Below, in pieces: positions 816 through 22,415 of a stretch of 34,546 nt of DNA; the first letter of the stretch is position 1, and each line of letters starts with the position of its first letter. The DNA is from a virus. The stretch lies in the IMG/VR virus record IMGVR_UViG_3300028746_000026, positions 1-34,546 of that record, one strand, 5' to 3'. Under the pieces are notes generated by a model. It searched no databases. It was not told the origin of the DNA and was given only the letters and a program-made list of their open reading frames with translations. The position numbers and the translations under genes are program-made.

Positions 816-3800
816 ATGAAACGCATTCTCATCGCGGTCGCGGCTCTGTGCCTAAATTCGGCGTTATACGCGCAGACTGGCGTGAGATATGACGGGCGTG
901 TCACTGTTGCAGGCACCAACGCACCCGTAAATGCTAATGTGCCCTTGATGGCTGTGCCCAATGCCACGGTTACGATTTGCTCAGACGGTGCCTGCCAAGA
1001 TCCAACCATCGTCTATAGCAACCAGGCTTTGACGGTTTCGATTGGTTCTTCCCTTAAAACTGATGGGCAGGGAAAGTTTGGTTTCTATGCCTCATCGGGC
1101 TCCTACTTCTATCAAGTGCAGCTCCCCTCGGGCACCATTCAAGGCATCTTTCCGATCACTTTGGGCGGTTCTGGTGCTTCGATCACTCCCTCAATTCCAG
1201 TGCTCGCCAGTAATTCAAGCGGTGCTGGTGTAGCGGCTTCCGCTTCGGGCGTGGCGGGCTTGTTTGGCTGCACATCTACCCAGATTCTCAATGGGGCTGG
1301 CGGCTGCTCCACGAATGGCGGTTCGGTTCTAGGGCAGCAGTACCGCATCTCTGGATTTACTGGCTCTGGCTCGGGATCAAGCACAGCCCTTGGGCAGACG
1401 AACTCCTTTACGGATGCAACCGGAAACCCCCTCACGGTACCCGGTGCGCTTGGGGCCTACACGACAAACGGTATGGGCAACACAGATCTGACTGGAGGGA
1501 TTGCAGCAAATCTTTCCTCGCCCACCGCTTCAGCCTTGATGGTTCCCCCGAACAGCTCTGACACCTACTCCCTTGGTGGGCTCCCCGTTACACCTGGATT
1601 CGCGCCCATCAACTTTTATGACTACCGCCTCAACTCGACTTGGGAGTACCACGTCAATCCAGGCACGGCATCGCCGGGAAACAGCACGAACGTGGGCCAC
1701 GGCATCAACTGTCAGTTTGGCGCACTGCTCACCGCCGGATACGGCTTCTATCAATGCGCCCCTAGCGTGATGGTTAAGCAGGGCGGCGGAGTCAACCTTG
1801 AGGACTCTTGGACGAATGTTCAGCAGTTCTCCCTGGTTGGCACTTTCCAGACTCGTGGTCAGAAGTACATGCAAACCACAATTAGCCACTTCTTCGGCGG
1901 AGGCGATCAAATTCGTTCCGAGAATGAAGGGACCTTTAGGGCAGCTTGCACTGATTCGAGCGGCGAATGCATCAAGGAAGAAAGTAGCCATATGGTTGAG
2001 GTTTTGGGACCGTCTGGCACGGTGACGAGTTACAACTCTTCAACTCTTCGGATCGCCCCGAACTGGACGAGCCTTGGCGCTAATGTGGGCGATGGCGAGT
2101 TTGTGGTCAACACCACTGCGCCGACCTACACAGGCGGAAACATCAGTTTGAATACCGCTGGTGGAACTGTTGTTCCATCACTCTATAACTCGACTGTCAC
2201 TCTAACCCCGTCCCCTTGGCAAGCGACAGTAAGTTCCGGATGCGGAGCGATTACGCAGTCGGATGAGCCGGCCTCCGCTGCCTGCACCGTGAGCGTGACT
2301 GTAAACACGACCGCGCCCACTGCTGGCAGTGTCGTGTGCTTTGCAGATCCCTCCAGGTTTGAACAGGCTGCAGTTGTAAGTCTTAGCGGATCGACCTTGA
2401 CGGTAAAAGTACGCTACACCCACTCGGCGGGAACTCCTGTAATGTATGGCGGGACTTGCGGCCTTGCGGCGATTCTGTTGCAGGGTGAAACGGCCTATAC
2501 CGGACTCGCAGACCCTATTCCCTATATGGGTGGTGGTTCTCCTTCTGCAAGCACGACCTATGTCGTGATGAACGTGCTGGGGAACCAGTTGAACAACGAG
2601 GAGTTGCCGATACCTTCTAACAATGCGGGATCGCTGTCTGGCTGCACACTGAATCGATCGGGTTCGACCGTGAGCACATCCTGCCAAATTCCTCCAATCT
2701 ACAACGGCTTTAGTCAAGTGTCTTCTGCATCCCCCATCACCGTCACCGGGAATAGCTGCAGTGATCTTAACGGCACGATCACCGGGGCTATCACCACGAA
2801 TCGCAATGGCTCGAGTTGGACCATGGCTGGCACTTGCACCACCGGTACAGGTGGCTCTCTTCAGATGACGAACATGAACAACTTCGCCATGTATCCCGCA
2901 GCGGAAACGACCGCTGTCAACCCCGACGGAACGGTGACTGTAGAGGCAAACAACGCTGGGTTTGCTGCAGGCCAGGCTATCTACCAAATGAATCATTATG
3001 CGACTCAGGTCAACTCGAAGGGCGAAGAGGTCAACGTTTTGACGCAGAGTCCAACTGGTGGGAACGTGATCCACGAGTCGGAACTGGGGGGATTCGGACT
3101 CTATAACGCCAGCTACATTGAGCTTGATAACGAGAACTTTGGAGAGGAGCTTATTGGCTCAGGAGGAACCAATAACGGACTGTTCAGCTTTGCTGAGGTC
3201 AGGGTTCCCTATCAAAGCATGTTTAGTGCGACCTACGCGCCGCTGAACGGCGGAACTTATGGCTCGATCGGTTGCCCTTACACAGTGGGCGGAAATGCGG
3301 TCTGCACAGCAAACTCTCCAGCCTATAGCTTCTACAGTTTTGCAGGCTATAACAGCTATCTCCAGACTCAATATGATCCCGTTACGAATACGTTTTCTTT
3401 CTTCGGTGGAGGAACGAATGCCACTCTTTACACGCAGAACTTTACTTCGAGCGGAACTGTAAACATCGGCGGAACTGTAAACCTTTCGGGCACGGTGACG
3501 CTCCCAAGTTATTTCGCTCGAACGGATACAGCCAACACGTTTGGACAGATTCAGACCATTTCTACTAACGCCTTCTCGGGCCTCAATGTAATATCTTCAG
3601 GGTTTTATGGTGCGGCCCTCAACATCCAGAGCACAGAGCAGACTACATCAGCCCTACAGGGATGGGACCTGTGGCAGACAGGAAATTTTGGGGGACCCAC
3701 CGGCGTAGCAGCGGGCTCTTTTGTAATAGCAGACCAACAGACCAACATTAGCGTTTTTGCAGCAACAGATACCGGAGACTCCACTCTCGGCCTGCCGATG

Positions 3801-5072
3801 GCAATGGGCACGGGCAGCACAGTAAACAACACCTCGGGTGTTCCCGAGTTAATCTGTCTTGCGGATGGGACTAACTGCACGACGAGTTCAGTTGTTCCAT
3901 CCCCGCAATTCCAATTGCCCTACTACTCTGCGGGCGGGTCAGGAAGCGCGTTGACAGGAGATTCCCAAATCACCACAGATGGAGCGGGAACTCTTTCTGC
4001 ATACCACATGCAACTCAGCGACACAGTGAACAATGCAGCGGACGAATATTTCACAGGCAGCGGTGGGGATTCAACCTGTGTCGTCACTACGACAACAGGA
4101 ACATTCAATAACTGCATCAAGGGTGGCGTGCCAGTCGTCTCTGTGGCTTCGGTGAACTCAGGCGCGTTCTCGCCTTATCTTACTGCCGCGAATGTGATTG
4201 CTGGGGCGAATATCACGCTCACGCCTTCCTCGACGGGTCTGACAATCGCAGCTACGGGCGGCGGTAGCGGTTCGGGCACGGTCAACTCAGGAACTGCCTT
4301 CTCTCCAACTTATTATCCTGCGACCGGAACGGCCGTCTCTGGAACTACGCCATTTACCGGGTTCGGCTATTTCAGCACTTCAGCAGCCCCGACAGCAGCT
4401 ACGGCCACACAAGCTGCAACGCTCATCTCCGGCCTTACTGGTTGCACCACTGCTGGATACGTCTTCACGCCGCAGGGGAACGATTGCGTAGCGAATTCGG
4501 CTACTGTGGCTGGATTCACCTTCACGCCGAACACGACTGGCTTCTCAATTGCCGCGGGGACGACCTCAAAGACACTCACGATAAACAATACGATGACGCT
4601 GGCCGGAACAGACAGCCTTACCTACACCTTCCCAACTACTTCAGGAAGCCTATGTGTTATCTCGGGAAGCTGTTCTATCACTGGAGGGTGGTCTTTCGCC
4701 GGGAATTCATTGAAGGTCAACAGCGTTCCTATTTATGCGCAGGAGAGCAATGTACCTGCTTGCACCGGTGCTGAAACCGTAACGGCAGGATTCTCCATGT
4801 GGAGCTGCCAGATTACCGGCAATGTGACGGGAACAACTCTGGCCGCGCCTGGAACCGGAGCGGGGATGACAGTAACTCTCGTCTATTCGCAGACCGGATC
4901 AAACACATTCACTGCAGTTCTTCCAAGCAACATCATCTCGCCTAGCAGCCTCGCATCCAGCACGATCACTGTTACCGCTGGCAAGAGAAGTATCTACACG
5001 CTAGAGTACACCGCGAATACCAGCAATGGCGGGCCTGGCTGGATTCAGCTTTCCAGCGAGATCAACCAATGA
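816..5072 (+). CDS. Giant tail-fibre-like protein with N-terminal signal peptide
   Basis: This 1418-residue protein starts at an ATG with AAGGAG five bases upstream. Residues 1-19 form a Sec signal peptide (Lys-Arg, hydrophobic core, LYA before Gln20). Residues 20-110 resemble the small beta domain at the base of many tail fibres (NATVTICS, a TDGQGKFGFYA-like strand). The rest is a very long Ser/Thr/Gly-rich beta region with Cys pairs and local periodicity, for example three GTV-type hexads near residues 885-900. The C-terminus ends in a strand-rich cap (GWIQLSSEINQ). No enzyme motif is visible, so attachment or adhesion is the inferred role. The stop overlaps the next gene's ATG (ATGA). A signal peptide on a virion fibre is unusual, so a secreted or surface-displayed adhesin is the alternative. 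Confidence 0.75.
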   Translation: MKRILIAVAALCLNSALYAQTGVRYDGRVTVAGTNAPVNANVPLMAVPNATVTICSDGACQDPTIVYSNQALTVSIGSSLKTDGQGKFGFYASSGSYFYQVQLPSGTIQGIFPITLGGSGASITPSIPVLASNSSGAGVAASASGVAGLFGCTSTQILNGAGGCSTNGGSVLGQQYRISGFTGSGSGSSTALGQTNSFTDATGNPLTVPGALGAYTTNGMGNTDLTGGIAANLSSPTASALMVPPNSSDTYSLGGLPVTPGFAPINFYDYRLNSTWEYHVNPGTASPGNSTNVGHGINCQFGALLTAGYGFYQCAPSVMVKQGGGVNLEDSWTNVQQFSLVGTFQTRGQKYMQTTISHFFGGGDQIRSENEGTFRAACTDSSGECIKEESSHMVEVLGPSGTVTSYNSSTLRIAPNWTSLGANVGDGEFVVNTTAPTYTGGNISLNTAGGTVVPSLYNSTVTLTPSPWQATVSSGCGAITQSDEPASAACTVSVTVNTTAPTAGSVVCFADPSRFEQAAVVSLSGSTLTVKVRYTHSAGTPVMYGGTCGLAAILLQGETAYTGLADPIPYMGGGSPSASTTYVVMNVLGNQLNNEELPIPSNNAGSLSGCTLNRSGSTVSTSCQIPPIYNGFSQVSSASPITVTGNSCSDLNGTITGAITTNRNGSSWTMAGTCTTGTGGSLQMTNMNNFAMYPAAETTAVNPDGTVTVEANNAGFAAGQAIYQMNHYATQVNSKGEEVNVLTQSPTGGNVIHESELGGFGLYNASYIELDNENFGEELIGSGGTNNGLFSFAEVRVPYQSMFSATYAPLNGGTYGSIGCPYTVGGNAVCTANSPAYSFYSFAGYNSYLQTQYDPVTNTFSFFGGGTNATLYTQNFTSSGTVNIGGTVNLSGTVTLPSYFARTDTANTFGQIQTISTNAFSGLNVISSGFYGAALNIQSTEQTTSALQGWDLWQTGNFGGPTGVAAGSFVIADQQTNISVFAATDTGDSTLGLPMAMGTGSTVNNTSGVPELICLADGTNCTTSSVVPSPQFQLPYYSAGGSGSALTGDSQITTDGAGTLSAYHMQLSDTVNNAADEYFTGSGGDSTCVVTTTTGTFNNCIKGGVPVVSVASVNSGAFSPYLTAANVIAGANITLTPSSTGLTIAATGGGSGSGTVNSGTAFSPTYYPATGTAVSGTTPFTGFGYFSTSAAPTAATATQAATLISGLTGCTTAGYVFTPQGNDCVANSATVAGFTFTPNTTGFSIAAGTTSKTLTINNTMTLAGTDSLTYTFPTTSGSLCVISGSCSITGGWSFAGNSLKVNSVPIYAQESNVPACTGAETVTAGFSMWSCQITGNVTGTTLAAPGTGAGMTVTLVYSQTGSNTFTAVLPSNIISPSSLASSTITVTAGKRSIYTLEYTANTSNGGPGWIQLSSEINQ

Positions 5073-7684
5073 AGAGACTACTTCTTCTCCTCTTGCTTTT
5101 ACCGCTGCGCATGTTTGGCGCAACCTATACCGTCACGGCTACGCATTTAACCATGCATGCCGGTGATCAGGTGCCACCGCTGATCTTCACCGTTTCCACG
5201 TATAGCGGAACCTACGCCAGCGTGTTCAACGGCCAGCCTACGCTAAGCACCACGGCAACGTCTTCCTCGGTAGCCGGGACCTACCCAATCACAGTCACAG
5301 CGGGTTCGATGAGCCCGGTGAGCGGAGGGGACTCTCTGACCTTCGTTGCGGGCTCAATGGTGGTTCTGGCTCCGGATGGAACTGGCGCGAACATAACGAC
5401 CTCAACCTACCCGTCCGGATTTACTACTGGCCCAGCCTTCCCTGCATTCAATGTCACTTCTAACGCAATCGCGAATCTGGTAGGCGATGGGACGACAGAT
5501 AACGCCGTGAATATGCTTCGGCTACTGGATTTCGGACGCGGCACTCCTTTCGAGACGGTTACGGTGACAGGCGGGACAACCGTAACAACCTCTGGAGCAT
5601 GGCCCTTTACAGGAATCGCTAATGGCTCCATCGTGGCTCTCGGCGGAATTCCGAACACGATTGCTTCAGTGACGAGTGCCACGGTCCTTACGCTGGGTAC
5701 TTCCGTCACCAACGGCACCTACACCATGTTTCTTCCGTGGTGGAAGGTAAGCCTATCGGGTAATGTCGTGACCTTGGTGAGTGGAGTTCCATTCACTTCG
5801 ATACCGTCAAGCTATTTATATACAAGCTCGGGTTCACCGGGAGCCGGGTTTATCGTCGCGGGCGTGGCCACTTACATCACAGTCACCGATGCCTCTCATC
5901 TGGCTCTGGTGAATCCCGCGCCGCAGTTGAATGGAGCGACACTGACGGGCGTGGACGGCTTCCTTGGAGCCTCCGGATCAGCCAACTACGGACCACAGGA
6001 AGTCTCGATGTACTGGCCTGCTGGAGTCTATGCGACAAGTCAAAACGTGAGGATGCCGGGTGCTTTCTGGGCCATGTGGGGTACGAATCCGCAGACCTCC
6101 TACATCAAGCTTCTTCCTAACTCGATCATTGGGAATGTAACGCAAGTCCTTCCGCAGACGAACGAATTCTGGGAACCAAGTAGCGAAGGCGGTAACGACA
6201 ACTTCCACGAGTTCTTCAACAGTCTTGGCATTGATGTTGGCGTGGGTAATCCGCTGGCCATTCCCTACACCACCGTTCAAAACAACATCGGTTCGGTAAG
6301 GAACGCCGTCTTCTGGGCAGAAGATTCGCGGTGTCAATTCGGGGTGGACTGGCAGAGAGCTTATCCCGGCCCAATGCTGTTTAAGAATGTTTCCGTCTAT
6401 GGCTGCGTGAATGCGATCAGTTCTGTGATGGGCGAATACAACCTCGTCTGGGAGAGTGGCACAGAAGAGGGCCAGACCGGGACAGTAGTCAACGATGCGC
6501 AGTACATGAAGATCCAGTGGCGTCACATGCTCAGTGACAACGCAGGACAGTTTCTTCACTGCTACGGATCGGGCGAGTGCAGCGCGGTTCTCTTAGACTC
6601 GACCTTGCTGAATGGCAATGGCAGCACGGCAGCAATCCTCACTGCGACCAACAGCACCATCTACGCTAAGAACGTCACGGTGACAGGCTACAGCCCCTCG
6701 ATCTCGGATGGCTATACGGGAACCGTCGTCAACACTTCGGGGAACATCGCCCAATACTGGAGTGGAACAGCTCATAGCCTCTTCAACTCCGGCAGCACCC
6801 CTGATTCGCTTCATCTTACCGTTCAGGAGACGCCTGCGATTCCATCCATTGTTGGAGGAACGCAACTCAGTGCTGTCGCAACCAACTGGCCATCGCAGAT
6901 CGCATCCTGTACGGGGGCGGCTTACGCAGCCCCTGGCCAGTATGTTTTGTCTTCAGGAACAGTTGTGAATATTACCGTTCCAGACACCTGCAATGTCTTG
7001 CAGTTCTATCAGAGCGGCAGAAGCTCTGTGTCCTACACGATCAACATTACCGTTGCGGGATCATCCTCAACTCCCTTGACCATCACTGGTTGCATTTATG
7101 AATCCTGCAACCTCATTCACAGTGGATCACGGACAGTGTCTCTCGTTGATGAAGGGGTAAACATATACACGTCTTCTCCAGGGACTGGTAATCTCTTCAT
7201 CGAAGACGGTGGATTTGGCTATCCATCTATTACGACACCAGTCTTTCAAGCAGGACAAAGTGTCTGGGCACGACAACTCAACAACGAACAGAATGGTGCT
7301 AACAAGTTTGATTGCATCGGCTGCACACTATGGATTTTGGGCTACAAGACCGAGCAGCAGCACACTTATAGCGTTGTTCTTACCAGCCAAGCGAAGGCTG
7401 AAATCTTCGGCTATTGGTACTACTTCAACCAGACGCCGACAAGCCCGATCTCTGCCCCAATGACCATTACCGATTCAAGCCTGTTTGCCGTTGGTTGGTC
7501 GAAAGTAGACTCTTCGGCAAACGGGCTTCCAGACTTCATCACCGAGACGCAGTCGGGAACGACGCTAAACCTGACGAATCCGACCTCGGGATCTTCAAGC
7601 CAGTTGCCCATGTACTACTCCTTCGGCGCGTCCGCCACGAATCCCTTTGGCCGAAAGTTGTCGGGCCACCACAAACGACTCTGA
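5069..7684 (+). CDS. Pectate-lyase-like beta-helix tail spike with MBG-type domain and signal peptide
   Basis: This 871-residue protein has a strong signal peptide (MKR, then eight Leu, ending near FGA18). Residues 19-95 match the MBG-type bacterial Ig-like repeat (YTVTATHLTMHAGDQ, then a GTYPITV strand). GDGTTDN at 139-145 is the typical entry of pectate-lyase-superfamily beta-helix spikes, and residues about 300-640 show the repeating Asn/Val/Ser strands of a right-handed helix. By family knowledge such proteins bind or cut polysaccharide. No catalytic residue can be assigned by eye. It is coupled by ATGA to the upstream fibre and followed after 10 bp by another signal-peptide gene. A depolymerase spike is the best guess; a secreted adhesin is possible. 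Confidence 0.75.
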   Translation: MKRLLLLLLLLPLRMFGATYTVTATHLTMHAGDQVPPLIFTVSTYSGTYASVFNGQPTLSTTATSSSVAGTYPITVTAGSMSPVSGGDSLTFVAGSMVVLAPDGTGANITTSTYPSGFTTGPAFPAFNVTSNAIANLVGDGTTDNAVNMLRLLDFGRGTPFETVTVTGGTTVTTSGAWPFTGIANGSIVALGGIPNTIASVTSATVLTLGTSVTNGTYTMFLPWWKVSLSGNVVTLVSGVPFTSIPSSYLYTSSGSPGAGFIVAGVATYITVTDASHLALVNPAPQLNGATLTGVDGFLGASGSANYGPQEVSMYWPAGVYATSQNVRMPGAFWAMWGTNPQTSYIKLLPNSIIGNVTQVLPQTNEFWEPSSEGGNDNFHEFFNSLGIDVGVGNPLAIPYTTVQNNIGSVRNAVFWAEDSRCQFGVDWQRAYPGPMLFKNVSVYGCVNAISSVMGEYNLVWESGTEEGQTGTVVNDAQYMKIQWRHMLSDNAGQFLHCYGSGECSAVLLDSTLLNGNGSTAAILTATNSTIYAKNVTVTGYSPSISDGYTGTVVNTSGNIAQYWSGTAHSLFNSGSTPDSLHLTVQETPAIPSIVGGTQLSAVATNWPSQIASCTGAAYAAPGQYVLSSGTVVNITVPDTCNVLQFYQSGRSSVSYTINITVAGSSSTPLTITGCIYESCNLIHSGSRTVSLVDEGVNIYTSSPGTGNLFIEDGGFGYPSITTPVFQAGQSVWARQLNNEQNGANKFDCIGCTLWILGYKTEQQHTYSVVLTSQAKAEIFGYWYYFNQTPTSPISAPMTITDSSLFAVGWSKVDSSANGLPDFITETQSGTTLNLTNPTSGSSSQLPMYYSFGASATNPFGRKLSGHHKRL

Positions 7685-7694
7685 GGTAACCCCA

Positions 7695-8096
7695 ATGAAA
7701 TTTATTATCATGCTGCTTCTCGCAGCCTCGCCGCTCTATGCCCAATGGACGAAGGTAGCTACTACCGGACAGGCGATTACTTCCATCCCCATCGGAACCA
7801 TCGTTCGCTATGGCACGGGAACTACATGGGTGATGAAGGACTACACCTCGACCAAGAGTTTCATTGTCGGGCCCGGAGAATATCCCGGCTTGGCCATTCC
7901 AGCGGCGCCCTACGAGCTTGATGTATGGCAGACACCGCTGGTGCAGACGATCACTGTTGCGGGCATTCCTGTGACTGTGCCCGTGGCAGCGACCGCACCA
8001 GTAAACCCCGGCGTCCCAATCGGCACCGTCAACTGTGTGCTTGAGATCAATTCAGCGAACGCCTTGAGCGTTGGAAGTTGCACGGTGTCGCAATGA
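7695..8096 (+). CDS. Small secreted protein of the spike cluster, unknown function
   Basis: The protein has 133 residues. The chosen ATG is preceded by a GAGG-type ribosome site nine bases away; a longer in-frame extension would overlap the preceding gene and lacks a ribosome site. Residues 1-16 are a signal peptide (MKF, hydrophobic, LYA before Gln17). The mature part is beta-rich and Pro/Val/Thr-rich, with a run of PVTVPV/PVNPG type near residues 95-115 and two Cys near the end. I do not recognise a family. Its position between two beta-helix spikes, with an ATGA overlap to the next, suggests a chaperone, adaptor or tip protein for those spikes. That is inference only. Confidence 0.7.
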   Translation: MKFIIMLLLAASPLYAQWTKVATTGQAITSIPIGTIVRYGTGTTWVMKDYTSTKSFIVGPGEYPGLAIPAAPYELDVWQTPLVQTITVAGIPVTVPVAATAPVNPGVPIGTVNCVLEINSANALSVGSCTVSQ

Positions 8097-10444
8097 AGAA
8101 GCTACTCTTTGCACTCCTCCTATTAGTTCCTTCGCTGCATGCCGCCACATGGTATATCCGTCCCGACGGTGGGACCAACACGCAATGTACAGGAAAAACG
8201 AATGCGGCTTACCCGGGCACTGGGTCAGCCCAGGCCTGCGCCTTCAACCATCCTTTCCAGATGCTCAGTTATTCGGGCGCATGGACAGCCCTTGCAGGTG
8301 GCGACACGATTCAATTCGTGAACACCTCAGGAACTTCTGACACCTACTTCCTGGGCGAGCAGAACAGCGGTGTGGGAACCGACTGGCACACGCAACTTGG
8401 CGGAATTTGCCCCGCTGCCAACTCGGGTTACCCCGGGGGAGCCTCCTGTATTCTTCCCGCGCTGCCTTCAGGAACCTCCGGAAACCCGACGCAGGTCATT
8501 GGCCAGAACGCGGGCTCGTGTCATGACGCAACGCACCAGCATCTCGTCAATCCGACCATCCTCTCCGGCATTGGCGGCGCATTCTCTGTGATGGACACCA
8601 GGGCGACGAATTACGTAACGATCAGTTGTATCGCGATCACTCAGCCTGATACCTGCACCAACTCCACAGGGGGTAGCGGCCAGTGCAGTTCAACCAATAA
8701 CTACGTAAAAGTTGGTGGGTTGATTCAAGCATATAGCGGATCTGCAGGAGCTACCAACCTAACCTTGACCGACTTCGGAGTCTTCGGTATTTCCGGGGAT
8801 GGTATCGAAGGATCAACCGATAACTCTCTCTCTTCCAGTGGTGTTAAGACATTCAACGATGTTCACCTGGCTGGGAATGGTGGGGATGGGTACAACTCCG
8901 ATTCGGGCGGCTGCGACACGTCATGCGAAGGGCAAGGCACCTTCAACGTGCACTACTCAACCTTCGACTGGTCGGGATGTGTTGCCGTGAAACCTTATAA
9001 CTTCAACGCATCCTCTTCAGCGAACACCTACAACTACTGCCACGACGATGACTCGGGTGGCGATGGAGACAACTTCGTCCTAATAGCCACCGGCAACGAG
9101 ACGGTCAATGTTGACCACTCCTTTTTCAGGTGGGGCGCACAGGATGGCTTCGACTCACTCCATCTGGGGGATGACTTATCTACGAATCCAAACGTCACCG
9201 TGACGGATTCATGGGCTGAAGGGAACATGGGGCAGACCTTCAAGGAAGGAGCCGGAGCGACGAACACCGCGATCAATAACGTCTCCATCAGCAACTGCCG
9301 CGTGATGGCAACAGCCTCCAATTTCCCCTCGAATCCCACTGGATGGAACGCGGAACTAAGCGACTTCTGCCGCGCATCTGGAGGAGCGTGGGTGTTTGCG
9401 ATGAAGGCTGGGACGGTGGTAACGGTACTCAACAACACCTCTATCGGCTACTCGACCACGATGTGGAACTGGGGCTGCTCTGAGAGTTCGCCCTCTACCT
9501 GCGTCTCAACCGGCGGCGCTTATGCCATCTTCAAAAACAACATGAGCTACAACTATCCTGACCCGGGCAATGCTGGCGTCTACTCCTCGGACTTGTTCTT
9601 TGGCAACGGCAATCCCTTTACGAATCCAGGTGGTTCAGCCAGCAATAACGGTTACTACCTGAATAAACAGGGATGCCCGGACAGCCAGTATCCGAGTGAG
9701 ACTGGGACGGTCTGCACCAATCCTCTGATCACCAGCACTGCCATCAACGCCATCAACCCGAACCTTCAATCAGGCTCACCGATGATCGGAGCGGGAGTAG
9801 CGATCTCTGGAGTTACGAACGACTATAACGGCAACTCACGGCCTTCCAGTCCTTCTATAGGTGCATTTGAACTGGTCGGCGGCACACCCACTGTTGCAAC
9901 ACCAACATCCACCCCACCAGCAGGATCATTTACGGGATCGGTGAGCGTAACTCTTGCGACGACTACACCAGGCGCGACCATTTGTTACACAACTGATGGA
10001 ACGACGCCAACAGCAACCACGGCCGGAACCTGCAGCCATGGAACACCGTACTCTTCAGCGATAAGCCTCTCCTCCACGACCACCCTCAACGCGATCGGAA
10101 CACTATCGGGCGACACAAATTCTTCGCTATTCACCGGCACCTTTACTGTGATTCCCCTCGTTGCCACTCCGTCGTGCACCCCAACCGCCGGAACCTATAC
10201 CTCTGCGCAAACTGTTACGTGTTCCAGCACGACATCAGGCTCTACAACTTACTGCACTATCAATGGCGCGGCACCGACTACAAGCAGCCCTGTCTGCACC
10301 TCGATAGCTATTGCATCCACGGTGACCTTGAAGGCAATCTCTGCGGCCTCTGGCGCCACCAATAGCGCGATTATCTCTCAGCCCTACACCATCAATCCGA
10401 CACGTCAGTACGGCCTGAAGATGGTCTTCTACCAAACACAATAA
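8093..10444 (+). CDS. Right-handed beta-helix spike with two chitobiase-C-terminal-like domains and signal peptide
   Basis: This 783-residue protein starts at an ATG overlapping the previous stop. Residues 1-17 are a signal peptide (MKK, Leu-rich, SLHA). The mature N-terminus (TWYIRPDGG) is typical of secreted parallel beta-helix proteins. Residues 40-595 carry short Asn/Ser/Cys-rich turns. Two consecutive domains at about 600-690 and 690-770 match the chitobiase/beta-hexosaminidase C-terminal type (ATP...AGSF, PGATICYTTDGTTPT), which is common in Acidobacteriota secreted proteins. The final segment YGLKMVFYQTQ is short and aromatic. Polysaccharide binding or degradation is inferred from the fold. 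The domain mixture suggests exchange with host secreted-protein genes. Confidence 0.75.
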   Translation: MKKLLFALLLLVPSLHAATWYIRPDGGTNTQCTGKTNAAYPGTGSAQACAFNHPFQMLSYSGAWTALAGGDTIQFVNTSGTSDTYFLGEQNSGVGTDWHTQLGGICPAANSGYPGGASCILPALPSGTSGNPTQVIGQNAGSCHDATHQHLVNPTILSGIGGAFSVMDTRATNYVTISCIAITQPDTCTNSTGGSGQCSSTNNYVKVGGLIQAYSGSAGATNLTLTDFGVFGISGDGIEGSTDNSLSSSGVKTFNDVHLAGNGGDGYNSDSGGCDTSCEGQGTFNVHYSTFDWSGCVAVKPYNFNASSSANTYNYCHDDDSGGDGDNFVLIATGNETVNVDHSFFRWGAQDGFDSLHLGDDLSTNPNVTVTDSWAEGNMGQTFKEGAGATNTAINNVSISNCRVMATASNFPSNPTGWNAELSDFCRASGGAWVFAMKAGTVVTVLNNTSIGYSTTMWNWGCSESSPSTCVSTGGAYAIFKNNMSYNYPDPGNAGVYSSDLFFGNGNPFTNPGGSASNNGYYLNKQGCPDSQYPSETGTVCTNPLITSTAINAINPNLQSGSPMIGAGVAISGVTNDYNGNSRPSSPSIGAFELVGGTPTVATPTSTPPAGSFTGSVSVTLATTTPGATICYTTDGTTPTATTAGTCSHGTPYSSAISLSSTTTLNAIGTLSGDTNSSLFTGTFTVIPLVATPSCTPTAGTYTSAQTVTCSSTTSGSTTYCTINGAAPTTSSPVCTSIAIASTVTLKAISAASGATNSAIISQPYTINPTRQYGLKMVFYQTQ

Positions 10445-21125: not shown

Positions 21126-21388
21126 TGGCGTGGACTGAGCAAGATTTGGCTAACCAGCGCAGGCGACGGGAAAGGCGAAGGCTGAAGGGTTTATGTGAGC
21201 AATGTGGAAGGCAACCCTCAAGGGAAGGCAAGACGCAATGCTCGATATGTGTTTCTAAGAATGGAGGGCCCTTGATTAGTCGGTACAAAATATTCAAGAA
21301 GCGTGGGCCGAAGCGTAAACCTACGACACCAGAAGATTTGATGGAAATAGCAGATCGTCTTTATCGCCTTAGAAGGATGGTTGCATGA
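21125..21388 (+). CDS. Basic small zinc-ribbon protein
   Basis: The protein has 87 residues, with its start at a TAATG overlap. An Arg-rich helix (NQRRRRERRRLKG) precedes CEQCG (24-28) and CSIC (39-42), a four-Cys zinc site, followed by KKRGPKRKP and a helix. The layout (Arg helix, G-x-C-x2-CG, K-T-x-C-x2-C) recurs in small phage proteins. DNA or RNA binding is inferred from charge. The stop overlaps the methyltransferase start (ATGA). Confidence 0.65.
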   Translation: MAWTEQDLANQRRRRERRRLKGLCEQCGRQPSREGKTQCSICVSKNGGPLISRYKIFKKRGPKRKPTTPEDLMEIADRLYRLRRMVA

Positions 21389-22119
21389 GCTACACAATGG
21401 GTTCTCTCTTTGCGGGGATAGGCGGCTTTGATTTGGGCTTCACGAGGGCGGGTTTCGACGTTACTTGGGAAGTAGAAATAGACCCTTATTGCCAGAAAGT
21501 GTTGGCAAAGAACTTTCCGGAGGCAGAACGTTTTGGAGACATCAGAGAGTGCGGCAGTCACAACCTCAAGCCCGTTGACGTTATCTGCGGAGGATTCCCC
21601 TGTCAGGACATCAGCAACGCCGGCCGAAAAGCTGGAATCGATGGTAAGCGCTCCGGACTATGGGCAGAAATGCTTCGAATCGTTTGCGAGTTACGACCCA
21701 AGCTTGTGCTTATTGAGAACGTCTCAGCTCTCGTTGCATTCGGACTGGAACGAGTGCTTTGTGACCTTGCCGCCAACGGGTTTGATGCGGAGTGGGAGGT
21801 TATATCCGCGGCGGCGGTGGGGGCCGGTCACCTCCGGGAGAGGATCTGGATTCTTGCCTACCCCATGTGCGAGGGACAGCAAGGACATATCCCGTGGGAA
21901 GGTGTTCTTGAGTCAAATAAATCGCCATTCGCCAAGCATAGCAACGCAGGTTTTGACCACTGGAAGGGACTGGAAGACTTTGCTGCCGGCCTACCTGAAA
22001 TCGATGGGCTATCCGTTGGACTGGTTCGAAGGTGTGTCCAAGGACTAGGCAATGCAGTAGTTCCTCAGATCCCCGAGATGATAGCAACGCGCATAAAGCA
22101 AGCACTGGAGGCCGCATGA
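21385..22119 (+). CDS. dcm: C5 DNA cytosine methyltransferase, compact
   Basis: The protein has 244 residues and starts at an ATGA overlap. Motifs in order are SLFAGIGGFDLGF (I, SAM), Glu-Ile-Asp (II), GDIRE (III), GGFPCQDISNAGRK (IV, catalytic Cys), ENVSAL (VI), GAGHLRERIWILAYP (VIII) and GLGNAVVPQIPEMIA (IX-X). The gap between VIII and IX-X is only about 55 residues, so the target-recognition domain is very short. By family knowledge it makes 5-methylcytosine, probably to shield phage DNA from host restriction. No cognate nuclease is adjacent. A 172-codon open frame overlaps 21533-22048 in another register. Confidence 0.92.
   Translation: MSYTMGSLFAGIGGFDLGFTRAGFDVTWEVEIDPYCQKVLAKNFPEAERFGDIRECGSHNLKPVDVICGGFPCQDISNAGRKAGIDGKRSGLWAEMLRIVCELRPKLVLIENVSALVAFGLERVLCDLAANGFDAEWEVISAAAVGAGHLRERIWILAYPMCEGQQGHIPWEGVLESNKSPFAKHSNAGFDHWKGLEDFAAGLPEIDGLSVGLVRRCVQGLGNAVVPQIPEMIATRIKQALEAA
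21533..22048 (+). CDS. Second-frame ORF inside the C5 methyltransferase gene
   Basis: This frame is open for 172 codons (TTG 21533; a TTG at 21575 is an alternative) entirely within the methyltransferase gene, shifted by +1. The product reads SAEDSPVRTSATPAEK, SLCLLRTSQLSL, TGLMRSGRLYPRR, GSGFLPTPCARD and finally SMGYPLDWFEGVSKD. These blocks resemble, from memory, a family of phage proteins with W-R-T-S-Q, P-R-S-G-x-M-R-N-G, L-P-T-P-x-A-x-D and an MGFP-x-GWTD end, which occur with or within C5 methyltransferase genes. Motif VIII of the enzyme and the L-P-T-P block are the same DNA. No ribosome site is obvious. It may be real dual coding or a by-product of conserved motifs. Confidence 0.42.
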   Translation: METSESAAVTTSSPLTLSAEDSPVRTSATPAEKLESMVSAPDYGQKCFESFASYDPSLCLLRTSQLSLHSDWNECFVTLPPTGLMRSGRLYPRRRWGPVTSGRGSGFLPTPCARDSKDISRGKVFLSQINRHSPSIATQVLTTGRDWKTLLPAYLKSMGYPLDWFEGVSKD

Positions 22120-22415
22120 GCAAGTACCACGCTAAGCGATCGGGTGCCTTCGCCTCCAAGCGCGAAGCAAATAGAGCTGGCGATCTGGAGCTGCAGCAGA
22201 AGCTAGGACTTATATCCGATTTGGAGTACCAGGTGAAATTCGAGTTGGTACCCAAGCAAGACGGTGAGCGTGCAGTGACCTACACGGCGGACTTCCGCTA
22301 CAAGGAAAACGGCCAGACAGTAGTTGAGGATTCGAAGGGCATGAAGACCCAGCAGTATGTGATTCGCAGGAAATTGATGCTTTACATTCACGGCATAAAA
22401 GTGAGGGAAACCTAA
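22116..22415 (+). CDS. DUF1064-type phage protein
   Basis: The protein has 99 residues, with its start at an ATGA overlap with the methyltransferase. KYHAKRSGAFASKREANRAGDLELQQKLGLISDLEYQ and TADFRYKENGQTVVEDSKGMKTQQYVIRRKL follow the DUF1064 pattern; Asp-Phe-x-Tyr...Val-Glu-Asp-x-Lys-Gly carries acidic residues and a Lys like a PD-(D/E)xK nuclease core. A nuclease role is therefore plausible by family knowledge but not shown. It lies in the replication/modification module, where Holliday-junction or restriction-like activities would fit. Confidence 0.82.
   Translation: MSKYHAKRSGAFASKREANRAGDLELQQKLGLISDLEYQVKFELVPKQDGERAVTYTADFRYKENGQTVVEDSKGMKTQQYVIRRKLMLYIHGIKVRET

Follow-up and report, generated by a model that had tools for sequence, protein, structure and literature searches.

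The C5 cytosine methyltransferase locus of this 34.5-kb virus record raises the question of what is encoded by a long second reading frame lying inside the enzyme gene. In the window, by which the whole analysed stretch of 34,546 nucleotides is meant, the methyltransferase ORF (alpha) occupies positions 21385–22119 of the plus strand, where all features described below also lie unless stated otherwise, and encodes 244 aa. Within it, an ORF in the +1 register (beta) runs from a TTG at 21533 to a stop ending at 22048, giving 171 aa plus stop, exactly as a previous sequence-only reading had claimed, and the frame measures 188 codons from stop to stop. It passes through motifs IV, VI and VIII and the recognition region of the methyltransferase. 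The next gene, a member of the DUF1064/Holliday junction resolvase family (22116–22415; PF06356, 1.8e-15; phrog_190, 2.5e-30), overlaps the alpha stop through an ATGA, and recombination and terminase genes are found near the locus; this gene order and these neighbours fit a phage orphan methyltransferase. An antisense ORF is also present at 21800–22255, and elsewhere in the window three very long ORFs (816–5072, 5069–7684 and 8078–10444, encoding 1418, 871 and 788 aa) had no PHROG match at 0.001.

The membership of alpha in the C5 cytosine DNA methyltransferases was established by the presence of motif I (FAGIGGF, 21409–21429; invariant or near-invariant columns in two alignments), motif IV (GGFPCQ, including PCQ, 21589–21606, with the catalytic Cys codon at 21601–21603; invariant columns), motif VI (ENV, 21715–21723; E111 and N112 invariant), motif VIII (HLRER, containing RxR, 21829–21843; R151 and R153 invariant) and motif X (GLGNAVVPQIPEMI, 22042–22083; near-invariant columns). 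The match to PF00145 (2.6e-47) covers residues 4–159 only, and none of the 94 loci examined has motif IX in frame 0, while most carry a motif IX-like segment in the +1 frame. In addition, the alpha profile maps to residues 14–190 and, weakly, 299–319 of M.HhaI, leaving the HhaI small domain uncovered. The AF2 model of alpha (pTM 0.76) is confident for residues 1–160 and about 231–243, the latter being a C-terminal helix, and Foldseek placed this model against HhaI at 3e-17 over about 163 residues. Residues 178–213 (21916–22023), which take the position of the recognition domain and motif IX of canonical enzymes, had pLDDT below 50. On the strength of the model, alpha can confidently be described as a predicted catalytic large domain plus the motif X helix, with a linker replacing the small domain.

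When the beta family profile was compared with canonical enzymes by hhalign, its best match was motif IX (LTPrECxRLqGFPd, E 0.0044; next best 0.45), a short and modest resemblance that points to the segment LPAYLKSMGYPLDW at 21983–22024, for which the family consensus is LNPxWVEWLMGFPxGW. On the DNA, this segment sits between motifs VIII and X, as in the canonical order. The proposal that the MGYP..W end of beta and the GLGNAVVPQ motif of the enzyme come from the same neighbourhood held in so far as the two adjoin (22004–22024 and 22042–22068), but they share no bases. In the window copy, LPAYLKS-MGYPLDW, the near-invariant Glu is replaced by Lys and one residue is missing, so that this particular beta could be diverged or impaired; the conclusion for the family is independent of this somewhat degenerate segment, and the activity of this enzyme might depend on it. 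The AF2 prediction for beta alone was poor (pTM 0.26), with the motif IX region predicted best, a pattern that a fragment needing a partner in order to fold would show.

The phage family to which the sequence-only reading had linked the frame does exist, since the beta product belongs to PHROG_1008 (3.5e-16), which PHROGs label just 'DNA methyltransferase', with overlap and role unstated. Searches of Pfam, NCBIfam and PDB sequences with beta gave no match, and no relative was retrieved when viral contigs were scanned with just the beta of the window. By tblastn, 59 phage records, representing a wide range of hosts, contained relatives of the +1 product, all below 60% identity, and in 14 phage loci that were inspected the +1 match lay over the methyltransferase ORF in the same register; among these, Mycobacterium phage Llama has a frameshift that disrupts both frames. 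There (positions 2305–3064 of that locus, genes 74/75), the frameshift splits the methyltransferase into two overlapping ORFs, and the annotations of several related phages show the same split. In a sample selected with beta and comprising 80 viral and 80 cellular loci, beta overlapped alpha in the +1 register in 80/80 viral and 78/80 cellular cases, and no stand-alone beta gene was found among these 160 loci. The two exceptions, L382 (Paenibacillus macquariensis) and L321, are frameshifted copies, where a single ORF continues from the alpha frame into the motif IX segment of beta, either by natural fusion or by assembly error. A separate beta gene is unannotated in most of the phage records examined.

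Taken together, the locus very probably encodes a heterodimeric C5 methyltransferase of the M.EcoHK31I kind, whose two subunits would be specified by overlapping frames of one mRNA, and an M.EcoHK31I-like mechanism is likely for the pair. Frame 0 would yield alpha, with the AdoMet-binding catalytic large domain (motifs I–VIII and X) and an unstructured linker where the small domain would otherwise be. Internal initiation within alpha, at the TTG 21533 behind a GGAGG, would yield beta by +1 reading to 22048. The C-terminal end of beta, bearing the motif IX-like segment, would also probably carry a target-recognition surface. The N-terminal half of beta, which shares its DNA with motifs IV–VIII, probably binds alpha, and is the less understood part of the protein. 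The two chains may then assemble into one active methyltransferase, which most likely would protect the phage genome from host restriction. The partner protein that had been suggested for this frame can be specified further, as a beta subunit from which the enzyme probably obtains motif IX and its small domain.

Beta could alternatively be a real protein that is not a small-domain subunit, for instance one that regulates or inhibits the methyltransferase, or one that acts separately in counter-defence. In agreement with such a role, beta modelled alone shows no confident methyltransferase small-domain fold, no Pfam model ties it to C5 methyltransferases, and a streptococcal class of enzymes, discussed below, retains motif IX in frame 0 and yet has a beta-like ORF. 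Against it, the position of the motif IX-like segment between VIII and X follows the canonical order, and IX is missing from alpha in all loci; moreover, beta hardly ever occurs apart from alpha, and M.EcoHK31I is a known enzyme built in two such parts, which makes this alternative unlikely.

The subunit reading presupposes that the +1 frame is a gene, and a passive ORF, arising as a by-product of the conserved motifs and codon usage of alpha, was also considered. Several blocks of beta are in fact partly dictated by alpha motifs, with RTS opposite ENV and G-M-M-R-S-G opposite GFDAEW, and the near-constant overlap of beta homologues with alpha would be expected of such a by-product. Nevertheless, when the alpha gene was recoded synonymously 2000 times with the encoded protein and the codon usage preserved, the mean length of the longest +1 frame was 71 codons and the maximum 144, so that 0/2000 recodings were as long as the real frame and chance is ruled out as its origin. 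Relatives were also fetched with alpha alone, so that the +1 frame played no part in their choice: in all 80 viral loci obtained (74 distinct proteins) the +1 frame was open, for at least 133 codons. Among 94 relatives, the median open frame was 214 codons for +1 vs 53 for +2, and the synonymous-shuffle p for the +1 frame was at most 0.05 in 89 of them.

The same conclusion was reached from conservation. Every gene was shuffled synonymously and its +1 translation compared with the result across 32 relatives below 60% alpha identity, a range in which synonymous sites are mostly saturated. Across alpha codons 50–221, the +1 translation was conserved in excess, with z of 6.2, 9.1, 22.1, 26.3, 10.1 and 41.3, vs 1.6 and –0.2 in the flanks; these z values ignore phylogeny, and the argument is carried by the controls and the boundaries. 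The value of 41 corresponds to alpha codons 206–221, opposite the motif IX-like segment of beta, and the GFLPTP block of beta (21848–21865) reached a per-column z of up to 16. This pattern was unchanged when only alpha-selected loci were used, whereas in canonical methyltransferases, used as a control set, |z| in +1 was at most 1.4. The +2 frame of the family showed a weaker excess, as expected from its fewer free synonymous sites. In the reciprocal test, with beta held fixed, conservation of alpha exceeded expectation in all parts compared (z 7.6 to 56). Additionally, in pairs of 60–98.5% identity, the share of substitutions falling on third codon positions was 67% in the alpha-only 5′ part vs 43% in the overlap, and that of first positions, which are the third positions of beta, was 19% vs 33%. 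The excess within the ORF limits, the codon-position shift and the flat control show that selection acts on both frames, and dual coding of this stretch, as far as sequence comparison can carry it, is well supported; the sequence-only reading had suggested it, and the substitution evidence, which the methyltransferase frame does not explain by itself, is independent of that suggestion. The lack of homologues outside the overlap, which had been named as grounds for doubt, was indeed observed, but it does not count as a refutation, since the +1 conservation exceeds the constraint imposed by alpha and the excess is confined to the ORF limits. The passive ORF was rejected on the synonymous shuffles and the canonical control set, and, as it leaves unexplained both the codon-position shift and the enrichment of ribosome-binding sites described next, it is very improbable.

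For beta to be a separate subunit, it would need its own start. A Shine–Dalgarno GGAGG is seen at 21519–21523, 9 nt before the TTG, and a TTG with GGAGG is common to the close relatives; that the start is a TTG counts against the two-subunit reading. In many other relatives, an ATG is found at or beside the aligned start, following GGAGGTG-like sites. Of 95 loci, 33 have a Shine–Dalgarno match of at least 5 nt at suitable spacing near the aligned start, compared with 6.7 ± 2.2 in synonymous shuffles, an enrichment of about fivefold. Programmed ribosomal frameshifting from alpha into a fused alpha–beta chain, for which one might cite the natural or assembly frameshifts that join the two frames or break both in L321, L382 and Llama, can be set aside as highly unlikely, because Shine–Dalgarno sequences and start codons are enriched at that single aligned place, +1 conservation starts soon after it rather than after motif VIII, and a +1 shift would lose motif X, which remains in frame 0.

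A C5 methyltransferase totally overlapped by a second product, encoded in a different frame, has been described in Streptococcus thermophilus 5093-group phages, phage MM1 and Tn5252 (PMC5601072). The alpha of the window differs from that class in the absence of motif IX from frame 0. In a streptococcal set composed of P0093, IPP20, ARI0746 and 80 viral relatives (L180, L181, L184, L227–L306), every one of these canonical-type enzymes had a +1 ORF of at least 120 codons and kept motif IX in frame 0. This ORF was conserved beyond shuffles (z 5 to 19 over residues 31–180), its N-terminal region was related to the window beta beyond the constraint of alpha (z 3.7 to 13), and its product has at its end SLSDILEExVxxKYFLS, which matches an element that canonical enzymes have after motif VIII (E 4.4e-5). 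In P0093, the ORF is annotated as gene 47, and a +1 ORF of the streptococcal type is present in Arthrobacter phage Pitbull (L182) too. Two members of the canonical control scan, L217 and L219, have +1 ORFs that match the beta profile with values near 1e-10. Their presence probably accounts for the slight z values left in the cross-class test, and, judging from these two, the overlap extends beyond the two described classes. These comparisons suggest a single overlapping gene of old origin, with the small domain divided in one way in the window class and in another in the streptococcal class. Whether the +1 ORF is an ancient overprinted gene in at least two C5 methyltransferase classes, with a different piece of the small domain moved in each (motif IX in one, the post-VIII SLSDILEExVxxKYFLS in the other), is evenly balanced. 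If so, two-frame, two-subunit methyltransferases would be a major phage architecture, and recognition would evolve in alpha and beta only together.

Long same-strand overlaps in which each product is a conserved part of an enzyme are rare, and such cases are difficult to demonstrate. In the present family, the divergence is deep enough to reveal two-frame selection and its limits, and the arrangement is kept across very divergent phages. Since the two-subunit overlapping kind is already known, what is new is its breadth in phages. The alpha/beta pair is split or misnamed by gene callers. Should activity require beta, many of the phage C5 methyltransferases now recorded as one short gene would be half-enzymes, and neither predicting their specificity nor cloning them from frame 0 alone would succeed. 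The pair would also represent a natural split methyltransferase, of the type used in targeted methylation, available in many sequence variants.

The closest known system is M.EcoHK31I, with which M.EaeI is grouped, and in which the beta gene lies inside the alpha gene in a different frame. The layout is shared by the window, where a small-subunit gene under selection would lie within the large-subunit gene in another frame. M.EcoHK31I is a YGGCCR C5 methyltransferase of a bacterial restriction-modification system, whereas here the gene belongs to a phage, with no restriction gene seen beside it. Furthermore, the present alpha is short (244 aa) and predicted to be without a folded recognition domain, unlike that of M.EcoHK31I; a relative of the latter sought with the window DNA against E. 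coli genomes gave no DNA match. In M.EcoHK31I, the large subunit contains motifs I–VIII and X and the small subunit motif IX (PMC3404938), and the likeness, matched by description, consists of an alpha with I–VIII and X but no IX and a motif IX-like segment in the beta family profile. The predicted recognition domain of M.EcoHK31I was placed in the large subunit (PMC3404938), which counts against firmly placing recognition in beta. M.AquI (CYCGRG) is likewise a natural two-subunit C5 methyltransferase, and its small subunit carries motifs IX and X (PMC3404938). That type of split is not the one met in the window, where motif X (GLGNAVVPQ) stays in alpha. It is resembled, however, by the locus of Streptomyces phage Euratis (genes 33/34, positions 2266–3364 of L006), in which alpha ends after VIII and the +1 ORF holds both the motif IX-like segment and X; this M.AquI-like split derives from the same family as the alpha/beta pair of the window.
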